Part shown: positions 35,425-41,837 of the stretch, piece after piece
Layout: every line of letters starts with the position of its first letter
How positions within the stretch are numbered: position 1 is the stretch's first letter
Origin: Methylophilaceae bacterium
GTDB taxonomy: Bacteria; Pseudomonadota; Gammaproteobacteria; Burkholderiales; Methylophilaceae
Direction of reading: 5' to 3'
Length of the DNA: 64,000 bases
Assembly: GCA_028351715.1 (NCBI GenBank)
Contig: JAOMKM010000004.1
Span: 1-64,000 of the forward strand
Program-made: the position numbers and the translations under genes
Notes under the pieces: generated by a model
Told to the model about the DNA's origin: nothing
Seen by the model: only the letters and a program-made list of their open reading frames with translations
Databases searched by the model: none

Positions 35425-36141
35425 ATGGCCAGAGATGAATCAAAGTTTGACCAAGACTGGTTAAGTATTATTGCTGGGAATACAGTCATCAAGATGGATA
35501 ATAAGTTGCGGCTTAAAGCGAGATTGGTAAGAGCCGCTTTGGTTAACCGAAAGCTAAGAATAGAGAGCCAGACTCCAAGTAATGCAGCTGATATAAATGA
35601 GCGACTTCGATTAAGGTTAGAAGAAGAGGGGTTAATTGCCCCACAATCTAAATACACTAAAAAGTTTTTAGATCATAAAATAAAAGCATTAGTCTTTTTA
35701 CTTATTAGTGGAACCGTGGTCTGGGCAACAAAAATTGAACCCCACTTTACAAAACCAATGGTAGCTGGTAATTTTTTTAATGAAGAGACAAAAGAGGAAA
35801 CTGTGCAACAATCTTTTAGAAAAAATTTCTTTGATCATTCAGGGGCATTTACAGGATTTTGGTCAAGACTCAATAATTATGTCGCCCTTGTCCCAGCCCC
35901 AAAAGACTCTTTAGACAATCAATGTAATCCTAAACTACTAACTATTGAAGGATGTTTGAGTTTAGCCTTAAAATTTGATTCTGCAGCACAATTTAATTTA
36001 GGGTTGATGTATGAGCAAGGCATTAATGTGGCTCAAGATTATAATCGTGCACTAGATTGGTATAAAAAATCAGCTGCGCTGGGTAATACACAAGCAAAAT
36101 TTAATATGAATTACATTGTCGTTAAAAAATTAGTGGAATAA
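35425..36141 (+). CDS. Membrane protein with C-terminal Sel1 repeat, candidate anti-sigma factor
   Basis: The 238-residue protein starts directly after the sigma stop with GGAG upstream. The N-terminal 85 residues are cytoplasmic in character, helical and basic (KLRLKARLVRAALVNRKLR). One membrane helix lies at about 86-102 (IKALVFLLISGTVVW). The rest is predicted periplasmic and ends with a Sel1-like repeat at about 187-222 (AAQFNLGLMYEQGINVAQDY, then ALDWYKKSAALG). Topology and position fit an anti-sigma factor whose outer part senses or binds partners. No ZAS zinc motif is seen, so the role is inferred from context. Confidence 0.65.
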   Translation: MARDESKFDQDWLSIIAGNTVIKMDNKLRLKARLVRAALVNRKLRIESQTPSNAADINERLRLRLEEEGLIAPQSKYTKKFLDHKIKALVFLLISGTVVWATKIEPHFTKPMVAGNFFNEETKEETVQQSFRKNFFDHSGAFTGFWSRLNNYVALVPAPKDSLDNQCNPKLLTIEGCLSLALKFDSAAQFNLGLMYEQGINVAQDYNRALDWYKKSAALGNTQAKFNMNYIVVKKLVE

Positions 36142-36150
36142 TTAAATTTA

Positions 36151-36180
36151 ATCCTGACCTTTAGTGTTATGTATCGTCAA
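36151..36180 (+). promoter_or_regulatory. ECF-type promoter C (before the exported Sel1 gene)
   Basis: ATCCTGACCT (36151-36160), 13 bases, then TCGTCAA (36174-36180). It differs from promoters A and B at one position in the -35 box and one in the -10. It is 31 bases upstream of the Sel1-protein ATG and lies beyond the stop of the preceding gene. Confidence 0.78.
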
Positions 36181-36211
36181 TCTAATGACAACAACAAATA
36201 GAGGTCAGATT

Positions 36212-37468
36212 ATGAAATTTAATAAAATTACTTTAGCAATATCTCAGTTACTCTTAATCTCAACACTTAGTCATGCAGACACTTCATGTAAGCAAGAAAA
36301 TTTTTGGCAAAGTTGGTTTCCTGAAGGTGAATTTGTTGGATTTGGGAAAATTCCATCTGTGGATAAGGTCGCCAAAGCACAATATGAATTCGCACAAAAT
36401 TATCATCGCGGAAATATTCTTACTAAAGATTATTCTCGTGCTTTAGACCTTTTTCAAAGAGCAGCAAATAATGGACTAACTCAAGCTCATTTTAAGTTAG
36501 GTCTCCTCAATCATTATGGACAAGGTAAGGCCAAGGATTTATCCGAGGCTTACGTTCATTATGAAAAAGCGGCTGAACAAAATAGTCCAGAAGCTGAATT
36601 CAATCTGGGCCTCATGAATCGATATGGCCTGGGTCGACCAAAAAATATGCCTGCCGCATATGAATGGTTTAGTAAATCTGCACAAGCAAAAACTGCAATG
36701 AATATTGATAAGTGTGAAATAAATTTATCTGGTGTCAAAGAATCCCAATTTAATTTAGCTCAAATGTACCACTATGGACTGGGTATAAAGAAAGACATGG
36801 TAAAGGCTGTAAATATGTATGAAAAAGCTGCAGCTTACAATATGAAAGAAGCTCAATTTAATTTAGCTAAATTATTACTTTCAGGAGAGGGGATTAAATA
36901 TGATTTTGATCGAGCTATGGAGAATTATAAATTGGCCGCCGAACAGGGTTTGGCTGAAGCACAACTTAATTTGGCTCAGATGCTTCACTACGGACCAAGT
37001 TACTTTCAGGATCATTTTGCTGCATATAATTGGTATCAAAAGGCTGCTAAAGGAGGATTGTCTGAAGCAGAATTTAATCTTGGACTAATGAATCATTATG
37101 GCAGAGGGACAAATCAAAACTATATAGCGGCGCTTGGTCATTATATTAAAGCGAAAAATGCCAACATTCCAGAAGCCTATTTAAATCTTGGGTTTTTATA
37201 TCACTATGGATTAGGTACTTCCATCGATGAAAAAAAAGCTTTTGAGTATTTTAAGGAGGCGGCACGTCATGATCTACCTCAAGCACAATACCATTTAGGC
37301 CTTCTATATCAGGATGGTAAATGGTTGTTACAGGATAAAAGCCAGTCGGCATATTGGTTTGATAAAGCTTCAAAAAATGGGATTCAGGAGGCAGAATTAA
37401 TGATTCAAGCTTTAGCGATGCGTGAGCCAGAAGATGCTGATTTATATATTGTGAGTCCTGAGAGATAA
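36212..37468 (+). CDS. Exported Sel1-repeat protein
   Basis: The 418-residue protein has a signal peptide (MKFNKITLAISQLLLISTLSHA) and then about nine Sel1/TPR-like helical repeats of about 36 residues. Each carries patterns such as EAEFNLGLMNHYGRG and AAYNWYQKAAKGG, and a non-repeat insert with one Cys (NIDKCEINLSG) interrupts the series. Sel1 repeats are protein-protein interaction solenoids. The ATG at 36212 is chosen because an upstream in-frame ATG (36164) lies inside promoter C. It likely acts in the periplasm, possibly with the Sel1 domain of the candidate anti-sigma. Confidence 0.85.
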   Translation: MKFNKITLAISQLLLISTLSHADTSCKQENFWQSWFPEGEFVGFGKIPSVDKVAKAQYEFAQNYHRGNILTKDYSRALDLFQRAANNGLTQAHFKLGLLNHYGQGKAKDLSEAYVHYEKAAEQNSPEAEFNLGLMNRYGLGRPKNMPAAYEWFSKSAQAKTAMNIDKCEINLSGVKESQFNLAQMYHYGLGIKKDMVKAVNMYEKAAAYNMKEAQFNLAKLLLSGEGIKYDFDRAMENYKLAAEQGLAEAQLNLAQMLHYGPSYFQDHFAAYNWYQKAAKGGLSEAEFNLGLMNHYGRGTNQNYIAALGHYIKAKNANIPEAYLNLGFLYHYGLGTSIDEKKAFEYFKEAARHDLPQAQYHLGLLYQDGKWLLQDKSQSAYWFDKASKNGIQEAELMIQALAMREPEDADLYIVSPER

Positions 37469-37730: not shown

Positions 37731-38561
37731 TTATTTAAAATTCCCTTTGGAGCGTGCCTTACTTTCATTGGAGCCACCAAAAAAACCTGGTTGATCAACC
37801 ATTTTTAGGTAGTCCTCAAAAATTTTCACTCCATCAGTATTAAATTTTTCTTGGATATCTTCTAAAGGAATATCATTTGAAATGATTACAGGATCGCCCA
37901 TCTGCCAATTGGCAGGAGTCGATACATTATACTTAGAAGATAGTTGCAAGGCATCAATAATCCTAATAATCTCGTCAAAGTTCCTTCCGATATTTTTTGG
38001 GTAGATTAAAATAGTCTGGATTGTTTTTTTAGGATCAATAATAAATACTGATCGAATAGTAGCCTTATTCGAATTACCAAATGACCCTTCATTAGGTTTA
38101 GCTTTTGGGTGATACATACCGTAAAGACTAGCGACTTCAAATTTTTCATCGGAGATTAATGGAAAATTAACGTCAGTATTTTTACTAAAATTATTGATAA
38201 TTTTATCTAAAGTACTTTTTTCTTTAATTTTATCTTTATAGCGATTGATGTCTGGGATCCACTCATTATGATCCTCTAAAGAATCAGTACTTAATGCGAT
38301 GACCTTGACATTTCTCTTCTTAAACTGAGGCTGAAGTTTTGCTACTTGTGCCAATTCAGTAGTACACACTGGTGTAAAATCGCTTGGATGAGAAAATAAT
38401 ACCACCCATTTCCCATCACTCCACTTATGGAAATCTATTTCCCCCTTTGTGGTCATTGCAGTAAAATTAGGTGCAATATCACCTATCTGATTAGCCGATA
38501 TGCTGCTAGCAAATAATAAACTTAAGAGGCATGTAATTAATATATTTTTAATACTTAGCAT
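37731..38561 (-). CDS. Exported 1-Cys peroxiredoxin (Prx6-like)
   Basis: The 276-residue peroxiredoxin has the peroxidatic motif FSHPSDFTPVCTTEL with Cys66. This is the only cysteine in the mature chain, so it belongs to the 1-Cys type. The C-terminal domain of Prx6-like proteins is present (TPANWQMGDPVII). Unusually, it starts with a signal peptide (MLSIKNILITCLLSLLFASSISA), which implies the periplasm, whereas Prx6 proteins are normally cytoplasmic. The reductant is unknown. It follows the oxidase-OYE fusion gene by 15 bases, so the two are probably co-transcribed. Confidence 0.9.
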   Translation of the reverse strand: MLSIKNILITCLLSLLFASSISANQIGDIAPNFTAMTTKGEIDFHKWSDGKWVVLFSHPSDFTPVCTTELAQVAKLQPQFKKRNVKVIALSTDSLEDHNEWIPDINRYKDKIKEKSTLDKIINNFSKNTDVNFPLISDEKFEVASLYGMYHPKAKPNEGSFGNSNKATIRSVFIIDPKKTIQTILIYPKNIGRNFDEIIRIIDALQLSSKYNVSTPANWQMGDPVIISNDIPLEDIQEKFNTDGVKIFEDYLKMVDQPGFFGGSNESKARSKGNFK

Positions 38562-38576
38562 ACTAGTTATTTTACC

Positions 38577-40331
38577 TTATTCTTTTGAATAAAATGAATA
38601 ATCTGAGTAGCCTTTTTCAGTGCCACCATAAAAGGTAGCCTTGTCTGCATCTCCTAGTGGTAAGTCATGTTCTAGGCGATATACTAAATCTGGATTAGCA
38701 ATGAAAGGGACGCCAAAAGCAACTAAGTCTACGGACGTAGTTTCTGCTAGGTGTTTATCGTATCCATTGTTTGCCATACTGGCAATACCACCATGCATTT
38801 TGAAGGTTTGATAAATTTTATTATAATCAAATATTTCACTATTTCGATCCCCACCAGTTTGGCCTTCAATTACGTGGATATAACCTAAACTCTTTCTGCC
38901 TAATTGTTCGGCTACGAAGTTAAATAGGGTTTGTGGATCTGAATCTTGTATATCGTTAAATTCTGATGATGGTCCAATACGGCAGCCAATACGGTTAGGT
39001 GTATATATAGTTGAGACTGCATCGATGATTTCTAATAAGAATCGTGTCCGATTTTGAATGGAGCCCCCATAGTTGTCTGCTCTAACATTACTACTATCAC
39101 GTAAGAATTGATCTATGAGATAGCCGTTAGCCGCATGTATCTCTACCATGTCAAAGCCAGCTTTTTTAGCATTTACAGCAGCCTGTCGATATTCTTCAAC
39201 AATTAAAGGAATTTCATATGCCATTAAGGATCGTGGTTCGGATACATCAGTTAATCCAGAAGATATAAAAACTTTTGCATTTGCTTTAATGGCAGAAGGG
39301 GCTACTGGCTGCCCTTTGTTTGGTTGTAATTCATTATGTGAAATACGACCTACGTGCCAAAGTTGTAAGCATATTTTACCGCCACGATTATGCACAGCAT
39401 CTACAACTTGTTTCCAGCCTTGGGTTTGCGCCTCAGAATAAATACCTGGCGTACAGAAATAGCCTTGCCCTTGTTGGCTTATTTGTGTTGCTTCAGCAAT
39501 AATAAGACCAGCACTGGCTCGCTGCTCATAGTATGAAGTCATCATTGGCGTAGGTACTCCTTTATCTGTAGCTCGATTTCGGGTTAATGGTGCCATGACA
39601 ACTCGATTAAAAAATATAAGGTCACCCAAGTGAAATTGTTGATAACGTAAAGAATTAATGCCTTCTGGGGTAGAATTAAATTTTGGCTCTTCCTTTTTTA
39701 ATTCAATTTTTTTAATATGATTGTTGTTAGAGTCTTCATCGAGGATATCTGCAAGATTATGATTAACAAGGGCATGTTTTTTTTCATCATCGCGAACTAC
39801 CTTAATGACATCGATTAGTTTTGCGTCACTTTTGAGCCTCCAATAATCAATAGCAATTTGCGGCGCATCAACATTAAGATCTGGATTATTTTCAACTTGT
39901 TCAAGATATGCTGTGTAACTTGTCACAGCTTCTTCTTCAAAGTAACCAACAATTCGATGTGCAGTTCTAGGAAAAAATACATAGATAATAAAATAGAAAT
40001 GCCAGAAAACAGCTTGTGCAATTAAAATTAAAGCCCGTTCAAACCAATTGGGTTTGGCAATTTCAATAAAAGTCATCAAATGCATTCGTTCATTTTCAGC
40101 TTCGTCTAATAAAATTTTAATCCAGCCTCTATCATGCTGCATTTTCCTAAGACATTTTAAATGAATCCACATACCAGCTACCATTCCAGGAACTGCAGCC
40201 ACTGTTTCAAGAACTACAGCTCGGTGACCGTAACGTTTTGAAAAAAAGGTGTCTGCAAAAAAACGTAAAAATTTGGTGATTAAAATTGCGATATAGTCAC
40301 TACTGTTCTCGGGCTTACGATGTTCTATCAT
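38577..40331 (-). CDS. Alternative oxidase - Old Yellow Enzyme fusion protein
   Basis: The 584-residue single frame joins two enzymes. Residues about 20-200 are an alternative oxidase diiron domain. Likely iron ligands are Glu42 (in VLETVAAVPGM), Glu81 and His84 (NERMH), the FEEEA motif at 131-135, and Glu183 and His186 (DDEKKH). Hydrophobic stretches at about 101-120 fit a monotopic membrane enzyme that oxidises ubiquinol with oxygen. Residues about 228-575 are an FMN-dependent Old Yellow Enzyme/NemA domain, with LWHVGRISH, HAANGYLIDQFLRDSSN and DNYGGSIQNRTRF. A charged linker (about 198-220) joins them. The combined activity is unknown. Confidence 0.88.
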   Translation of the reverse strand: MIEHRKPENSSDYIAILITKFLRFFADTFFSKRYGHRAVVLETVAAVPGMVAGMWIHLKCLRKMQHDRGWIKILLDEAENERMHLMTFIEIAKPNWFERALILIAQAVFWHFYFIIYVFFPRTAHRIVGYFEEEAVTSYTAYLEQVENNPDLNVDAPQIAIDYWRLKSDAKLIDVIKVVRDDEKKHALVNHNLADILDEDSNNNHIKKIELKKEEPKFNSTPEGINSLRYQQFHLGDLIFFNRVVMAPLTRNRATDKGVPTPMMTSYYEQRASAGLIIAEATQISQQGQGYFCTPGIYSEAQTQGWKQVVDAVHNRGGKICLQLWHVGRISHNELQPNKGQPVAPSAIKANAKVFISSGLTDVSEPRSLMAYEIPLIVEEYRQAAVNAKKAGFDMVEIHAANGYLIDQFLRDSSNVRADNYGGSIQNRTRFLLEIIDAVSTIYTPNRIGCRIGPSSEFNDIQDSDPQTLFNFVAEQLGRKSLGYIHVIEGQTGGDRNSEIFDYNKIYQTFKMHGGIASMANNGYDKHLAETTSVDLVAFGVPFIANPDLVYRLEHDLPLGDADKATFYGGTEKGYSDYSFYSKE

Positions 40332-40433: not shown

Positions 40434-41198
40434 TTAGAGAGGAGTAGTTTTTTTTCGTGGAGCTCTCCTGGCTAGCCAATCCCAAATCATTATTGGTAGA
40501 AGGTACATGATTCTTCCGATAATATTCATTTGCCATGGAACAATGCAGTATTTTTTTTTATTTTTAATAGCCTTAATTATTGCTCGAGCGGCTTTATCAG
40601 TAGGCATAAGAAAAGGCATTGAAAAATCGTTTACATCAGTCATAGAGCTTTTAATATAACCAGGTGCAATTGTTGTAACATAAATATTAGTGCTAAAAAG
40701 TTCAATACGCAGACTTTCTAGATAGTTTGTAAGAGCAGCCTTTGATGAGCTATAGGCGCCTGCTCCAGGTAGACCTCGGATACCTGCAACACTTGATATA
40801 CCAACAAGGTGTCCAGACCCTCTTTTTTTAAAAGCCTGAATAAATGGATAAAATGTATGAGTGACCCCAATCAGATTTGTGGCTATAATTTTTTTAAACG
40901 TTTCAAGGTCAGAGAAATTTTCGGTGAGAGTACCTGAGCTAATTCCTGCATTGGCAATGACAATATCAGGAGTCCCATGTAGGGCCATAAATTCCTCTGC
41001 AGCTAATCTACACTGGGCAAGATCTGTTACATCAACAGAGAAAATTAACGATTTGCAGGAAAGAGTTTTTTGTAATTCAATTAGCTTATCTTTACGCCTG
41101 GCAAAAAGACCAATCACCGCTCCCTGCTTATCGTATTCTTTTGCGAGGGCTTGGCCTATTCCAGAACTGGCGCCTGTTATTATAATTTTCAGAGCCAT
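40434..41198 (-). CDS. Short-chain dehydrogenase/reductase
   Basis: The 254-residue classical SDR has the cofactor loop TGASSGIGQAL at about 8-18, NAG in IANAGISSG, and Ser in GISSVAG. The active site is YSSSK at about 148-152. The basic residues after the first strand (ARRKDK) favour NADP(H). The C-terminal tail is hydrophobic (IIGRIMYLLPIMIW) and may touch the membrane. It is the last gene of the argS-SPOR-dsbA-SDR operon. Substrate unknown. Confidence 0.88.
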   Translation of the reverse strand: MALKIIITGASSGIGQALAKEYDKQGAVIGLFARRKDKLIELQKTLSCKSLIFSVDVTDLAQCRLAAEEFMALHGTPDIVIANAGISSGTLTENFSDLETFKKIIATNLIGVTHTFYPFIQAFKKRGSGHLVGISSVAGIRGLPGAGAYSSSKAALTNYLESLRIELFSTNIYVTTIAPGYIKSSMTDVNDFSMPFLMPTDKAARAIIKAIKNKKKYCIVPWQMNIIGRIMYLLPIMIWDWLARRAPRKKTTPL

Positions 41199-41207
41199 AA
41201 AGATTTA

Positions 41208-41837
41208 TTATTTTGTTTTATCTTTTCGAACATTGTTGATGATGTAATTCATTAGATCAATGGTATTTTGCTCTCCACCGGCCATGGTGCTAGAAGTTAA
41301 ATAACGACCATCAATAATGATGCTAGGAACTCCTGTAGCCCCTGCGGCTTTGAACATCTTAAATGAGCGAGATAACTTAGCATTCATAGAAAAAGAATTA
41401 AAGGCTGACTCGACCTCAGCCGTGTCTAGTTTTCCATTTAGTGCTATCCATTTTACAAGGGCTTTAGGGTCACCAGGATTTAAAGTTTTATCGTTATGAA
41501 TTGCCTCGAATAGCTTCTCATGAAGCTTATGGTCTAAATCTAGTGTTTCTAAGGCATAGTAAGCTTTAGCAGCTGGAGCCCAGTTTTTTCTTGGAATGGC
41601 TGGAACTCTTTTGAACACTACATCTTTTGCTAATTTATCAGACCATTTATCTAGATAGGGATCTAAATTGTGGCAATGGATGCAGCCATACCAAAATAAT
41701 TCAACGACTTCAATTTTATTTCCAGAATCAGTTGCGATAGTCTCATTGGTAGCTTTAAAATTAACTCCCGGTTTAGGTTCAACGGCAACAGCAGTATTTG
41801 CAGTGATAATTAAGAGTGCTATTATTAATTTTTTCAT
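41208..41837 (-). CDS. dsbA: Thiol:disulfide interchange protein DsbA
   Basis: The 209-residue periplasmic oxidase has a signal peptide (residues 1-18), the thioredoxin fold with helical insert, and active site CIHC in VELFWYGCIHCHNLDP. The canonical E. coli site is CPHC; Ile replaces Pro, which may change redox potential. The cis-Pro loop is TGVPSIIIDG. It lies between the SPOR gene and the SDR gene. Confidence 0.93.
   Translation of the reverse strand: MKKLIIALLIITANTAVAVEPKPGVNFKATNETIATDSGNKIEVVELFWYGCIHCHNLDPYLDKWSDKLAKDVVFKRVPAIPRKNWAPAAKAYYALETLDLDHKLHEKLFEAIHNDKTLNPGDPKALVKWIALNGKLDTAEVESAFNSFSMNAKLSRSFKMFKAAGATGVPSIIIDGRYLTSSTMAGGEQNTIDLMNYIINNVRKDKTK

Follow-up and report, generated by a model that had tools for sequence, protein, structure and literature searches.

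A single-chain alternative oxidase-Old Yellow Enzyme fusion at a variable oxidase locus of marine Methylophilaceae

The alternative oxidase (AOX) attaches as a monotopic protein to the inner face of the membrane and is represented among solved structures by the T. brucei enzyme. Class-I Old Yellow Enzymes (OYEs), among them NerA, NostocER1, morphinone reductase and NemA, are FMN enzymes built on a barrel. AOX is a single-domain protein in every sampled genome outside the genus studied here, which makes a natural, conserved fusion of AOX with a flavoenzyme surprising. Such a fusion is present in the genome of one of the Methylophilaceae, a tiny methanol-eating marine bacterium. The window analyzed, 64 kb in length, is the start of a contig of 75.5 kb; the draft genome to which it belongs totals 873 kb in 31 contigs and is 68% complete. 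Its relevant features are as follows.

38577..40331, minus strand: AOX-OYE fusion gene, 584 aa plus stop (open reading frame, Pfam, orthologues)
39747..40331, minus strand: alternative oxidase domain, residues 1-195 (Pfam; ligand motifs intact; helical in the model)
39636..39746, minus strand: charged linker with K[KRQ]E(E)P motif, residues 196-232 (203-226 predicted disordered)
38580..39635, minus strand: Old Yellow Enzyme domain, residues 233-584, class I, NerA / GTN reductase-like (Pfam; sequence and fold matches)
37731..38561, minus strand: peroxiredoxin with a signal-like N-terminus by eye, downstream of the fusion (Pfam, synteny)
40434..41198, minus strand: short-chain dehydrogenase (SDR), upstream of the fusion (Pfam, synteny)
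41208..41837, minus strand: DsbA-like protein, upstream; left border of the variable oxidase locus

One frame, two domains

The fusion begins with an ATG at 40331 and its stop codon ends at 38577, forming a single uninterrupted frame of 584 codons on the minus strand; the corresponding plus-strand frame is riddled with stops. An earlier note on this DNA had claimed the uninterrupted frame without naming a strand, and the claim holds for the minus strand. In the six fusion genes read, the stretch that leads from AOX to the MAPLTR motif contains no ATG or GTG. In-frame TTG codons occur there once each in four of the six, with no clear ribosome-binding site by eye, and a separate translation start for OYE is therefore rejected. 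The peroxiredoxin gene follows after a gap of 15 bp and is probably co-transcribed with the fusion. Past it, two adjoining Sel1-repeat genes occupy positions 35425-37468 of the window, one of them with nine repeat matches (Pfam).

The AOX domain spans residues 2-195 and matches positions 11-216 of the 216 in Pfam profile PF01786 (E 9.8e-79). Its ligand motifs are intact, with E42 in LETVA, E81 and H84 in EAENERMH, one Glu of 132-134 in GYFEEE, and E183 and H186 in RDDEKKH; the four Glu and two His are presumably the iron-binding residues. Residues 2-200 align with T. brucei AOX (PDB 3vv9), the four motifs included. Pfam and the motif check thus bear out the diiron AOX domain with Glu/His ligands that had been read from the sequence, and the loss of ligands on proper alignment that was raised against it is not seen. 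Only one of six fusions checked, that of the genome designated G029, is missing a ligand Glu.

The OYE domain spans residues 233-559 (Oxidored_FMN, E 2.8e-73) and carries the motif residues T250, W325, R367, H399/N402, Y404 and R451. T250, H399/N402 and Y404 are taken to be the catalytic Thr, His/Asn pair and Tyr of a class-I OYE. In class-I OYEs the Arg of a GRPFIAN-type motif lies near the FMN phosphate. The fusion has V541 at this position, as does the free OYE of genome G053, and the other OYEs listed have R or K. The nearest solved relatives of this half, by both sequence and fold, are the glycerol trinitrate reductases and NostocER1. Its substrates are not predictable from sequence.

An AlphaFold model of the fusion, built on 52 sequences, has a mean pLDDT of 85 and a pTM of 0.63. 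It presents a confident OYE (beta/alpha)8 barrel with a TM-score of 0.93 of target length against NerA (4jiq), together with an AOX that is helical throughout but modelled less confidently at residues 31-70 (block pLDDT 45-59, below 50 at 59-67). A fold search returned 1258 matches, and since all of the best 50 listed are OYEs, it is uninformative on AOX. Pfam, motifs and modelled barrel agree on an OYE domain in the same chain. The charged linker proposed between the two domains is also there, with pLDDT below 50 at residues 203-226, and is predicted to be disordered. Across the fusion genes it evolves faster than either domain. The K[KRQ]E(E)P motif, which was defined post hoc after viewing the fusion genes, is found in all 13 of them, counting AOX-OYE together with a second kind, AOX-DUF3293, and in none of the other AOX loci of the set (192 loci, duplicates included).

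Conservation and origin of the fusion

The named relatives are Methylophilaceae, including Methylophilales bacterium HTCC2181 (AAUX01000001.1), a cultured OM43 methylotroph described as the first isolate of lineage OM43-a (PMC10872708). OYE is present in 7 of 31 genomes of the genus and is attached to AOX in each, and no free OYE was found in the 31. The fused frame is uninterrupted in five genomes: the genome under study, G027 (90% identical), G025 (88%), G024, also called UBA4017 (76%, beginning at a contig end without its first ~20 residues), and HTCC2181 (74%). The sixth copy, in G008, is split, the gene leaving contig C117 inside OYE while the OYE end and the peroxiredoxin lie on C77; we infer a single gene. 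The seventh, in G029 (68%), has an in-frame stop near the N-terminus, and Lys replaces the missing ligand Glu. The nearby argS is likewise broken into pieces, and the damage may reflect assembly error or decay.

That an assembly or sequencing artefact joined two genes is almost certainly wrong. The genome under study is an incomplete draft in many contigs, as given above, but the in-frame fusion recurs with matching gene order in HTCC2181, in the record named isolate AH-578-I23, and in metagenome assemblies. These orthologues in independent genomes refute the artefact, and the independent assemblies of HTCC2181, G025, G027 and, from residue ~21 onward, UBA4017 exclude a frameshift between two genes, a doubt attached to the original reading. 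Among the fusion genes, AOX has a dN/dS of 0.014-0.145 in the 11 of 15 pairs whose dS is finite, and OYE one of 0.059-0.115 in 6 of 15 pairs, the rest being saturated; synonymous sites are near saturation between the more distant orthologues. By this measure of sequence change, purifying selection is acting on both domains.

The OYE tree, which covers 59 of 90 loci after duplicates and pieces under 300 aa were dropped, places the six fused OYEs long enough for inclusion in one clade (100/100). This clade adjoins the OYEs of G053, a free gene, and of L036, both from other Betaproteobacteria (100/98), and lies apart from the OYEs that five other Methylophilaceae genomes carry. This placement points to a probable origin of OYE outside the family and a single fusion event. 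In the AOX tree, six of the AOX-OYE genes group at weak support (70/76) and G029 groups with the AOX-DUF3293 genes. A single AOX clade of all seven fusions is rejected (p-AU 0.0004), and a clade uniting AOX-OYE with AOX-DUF3293 is not (p-AU 0.26). In G029, a DUF3293 gene directly follows AOX-OYE. A simple account, leaning on this doubtful genome, is that AOX, linker and OYE were once followed by DUF3293 and that deletion of OYE produced AOX-DUF3293. The tree of flanking genes differs from the AOX tree, placing G029 on a long branch with species that have AOX alone (88/87).

No other AOX-OYE fusion was found in the sampled genomes, plasmids, phages and viral contigs. In even samples of the class and the phylum, PF01786 occurs in 10 of 369 and 19 of 398 genomes respectively, and in the family it occurs in 52 of 187; each count includes the genome under study. 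Outside the genus, AOX open frames in sampled genomes reach at most 343 aa, and the longest owes its length to overhang on the upstream side, its tail being 24 aa; these frames are too short for an OYE tail. Among the best 80 of 213 relatives in the genome-contig search, full or partial fusions occur only in the genus (L031-L035). A plasmid search queried with the AOX part matched 26 records, of which the 15 listed are all annotated as alternative oxidase, and none of 44 phage records covers 80% of the fusion. Peptide patterns located 78 AOX loci in viral contigs, a few cut by contig ends, with no OYE and no AOX tail of at least 30 aa.

Those 78 putative viral contigs (IMG/VR, L182-L259) encode single-domain AOX in company of their own. 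Phage-like NrdA and NrdB accompany AOX in 25 of them, 13 of these with ThyX too; 10 have NrdB only, 7 have a helicase and SbcD, and 36 have none of these. In L252, AOX sits between nrdA and nrdB. The AOX of these contigs looks like a gene carried by marine phages.

The earlier note knew of no description of this architecture, and a literature search on the fusion, on AOX in OM43 and on OYE fusions likewise found none in the portions of the sources that were accessible. The term 'alternative oxidase' is absent from the main text of the Methylophilaceae papers searched for it. Since the HTCC2181 genome is public, domain databases may already display this architecture.

A variable oxidase locus

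AOX is present in 18 of the 31 genomes of the genus, as AOX-OYE in 7, AOX-DUF3293 in 6, AOX alone in 4 and a fragment in 1, so that 10 of the 17 non-fragment AOX genes are without OYE. The AOX-DUF3293 genes (PF01786 + PF11697; L020-L025 in G021, G016, G022, G023, G018 and G013) rest on Pfam runs for two and, for all six, on a genome search that matched DUF3293; that of G016 is cut by a contig end. The left border of the locus is shared, in the order argS, SPOR, dsbA and often SDR. The right side consists of peroxiredoxin and Sel1 genes in the genome under study, G027 and HTCC2181, and pntB lies further on in cydAB genomes and in 4 of 6 AOX-DUF3293 genomes. Behind lone AOX genes (L011 75-1510, L148-L151) are phage-like PD-(D/E)XK and YqaJ-type recombinase genes.

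cydA is present in 10 of the 31 genomes, and none has both AOX and cydA. The probability of no overlap by chance is 6e-6 across 31 genomes and 0.0023 across 14 near-complete ones, both figures being too small because they ignore shared descent; the exclusivity rests on few clades, and the genome under study is itself only 68% complete. Three genomes have neither gene: G012 and G020, which are 64-66% complete, and G010. G010, which is 99% complete, carries a cydB-like remnant beside dsbA (L167, L262). In 7 of the 10 cydA genomes, cydAB lies beside SDR and dsbA (L157-L161, L168, L169), and in the other three, G019, G026 and G030, cydA and dsbA are on different contigs. A COX1-family match occurs in 28 of 31 genomes (27 over the cut-off), and in the genome under study it is a cytochrome c oxidase (CtaD, and CoxB with a cytochrome c domain; NCBIfam). 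The mutual exclusion, the common place beside dsbA and the separate cytochrome c oxidase together suggest that AOX is probably an alternative quinol oxidase, replaceable by cytochrome bd.

In G019, G026 and G030, genes for rubrerythrin, a GlpC-like Fe-S protein and DUF3501, a possible peroxide-reduction operon, lie between SDR and peroxiredoxin, and in G024 they likewise follow SDR (L143 2897-5264; also L142, L144 and L171). G019, G026 and G030 are sisters of HTCC2181 plus G024 in a tree of argS, SPOR and dsbA covering 29 of 31 genomes (100/99). The idea that the operon stands in for AOX-OYE was dropped, since G024 has both, the three genes ending its dsbA contig and AOX-OYE opening another. 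HTCC2181 has no rubrerythrin at the locus. It is more likely that rubrerythrin entered ahead of AOX-OYE, which was then lost in G019, G026 and G030.

Function and comparison with known systems

The reading we favor, at a probability of about one half, is a membrane-tethered bifunctional redox-relief enzyme with two co-located activities, each having its own electron source and sink. The N-terminal AOX, on the cytoplasmic face of the inner membrane, would pass electrons from ubiquinol to oxygen without proton pumping, beside the ordinary cytochrome c oxidase. As AOX is monotopic on the inner face, OYE would hang from it in the cytoplasm on a flexible tether of ~25 residues, close to the quinone pool. 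There, near the membrane, it would draw on NAD(P)H and FMN for the reduction of electrophilic enones, quinones and the like. Made together and held together, both activities would serve one stress, an over-reduced quinone pool with reactive electrophiles. The activities, membrane side, substrates and benefit of co-location are inferred from the sequences. OYE never occurs in the genus without AOX and AOX often occurs without OYE, which suggests that OYE gains from AOX and not the reverse; six species carry DUF3293 instead and another four lack any tail, so AOX does not need OYE.

The same observations lend themselves to a near-neutral origin, in which neighbouring genes of a compact genome ran together when a stop codon was lost or a short stretch deleted, and the domains would act independently and gain nothing from being joined. 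DUF3293 follows, at the same position, a linker that likewise bears K[KRQ]E(E)P, as if the tail were interchangeable, four species do without one, and G029 has AOX-OYE and then directly the DUF3293 gene. We consider this unlikely, if far from negligible, as the frame survives in two well-separated clades with OYE under constraint and no genome of the 31 has a free OYE.

The fixed 1:1 tethering of an OYE that is never free in the genus would also suit a single-chain shunt, in which electrons run from NAD(P)H through the OYE FMN to ubiquinone, AOX and oxygen, giving a non-pumping, water-forming NAD(P)H oxidase. The dissimilatory ribulose monophosphate (RuMP) branch via 6-phosphogluconate dehydrogenase yields NADPH, and OYEs reduce small quinones. 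The shunt would burn excess reductant of this metabolism in a streamlined marine methylotroph. In OM43 strain NB0046 the TCA cycle is incomplete and RuMP metabolism includes this dissimilatory branch (PMC5120137), a setting that the shunt would suit. Set against the shunt are the predicted disorder of the linker and the presence of AOX without OYE in sister species. We know of no class-I OYE established to reduce long-chain membrane ubiquinone, and we regard the shunt as quite improbable. The disordered linker, the AOX genes without OYE and the DUF3293 tail are no less compatible with a co-localised function than with an obligate path for electrons. On this sequence evidence, of the two possibilities first put forward, co-localised defence against electrophiles and over-reduction would fit better than direct coupling of OYE to oxygen.

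The fusion raises the question of whether an OYE can feed, or work beside, the quinone pool, and the cultured HTCC2181 makes it testable. One place in related streamlined marine genomes holds AOX-OYE, AOX-DUF3293, AOX alone or cytochrome bd, and it puts DUF3293, whose function is unknown, into a respiratory setting.

Set beside described enzymes, the fusion is a new combination built from known parts. It shares with T. brucei AOX (PF01786) a full-length domain, all four ligand motifs and a similar helical core, but bears a 350-residue flavoenzyme at its C-terminus; AOX genes in sampled genomes outside the genus have frames too short for such a tail. Its OYE shares the barrel of NerA (4jiq) and NostocER1 (6uff), with TM-scores of 0.93-0.95 of target length, and the active-site motifs of these two, morphinone reductase and NemA, and differs from known class-I OYEs in being tethered to a membrane oxidase. 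AOX-DUF3293 of six sister species has the same position after dsbA, a related AOX and a similar linker motif, with a domain of unknown function in place of OYE. Cytochrome bd CydAB is a quinol oxidase, as AOX probably is, and adjoins dsbA and SDR in related genomes, but it is an unrelated haem protein found in no AOX genome of the genus.
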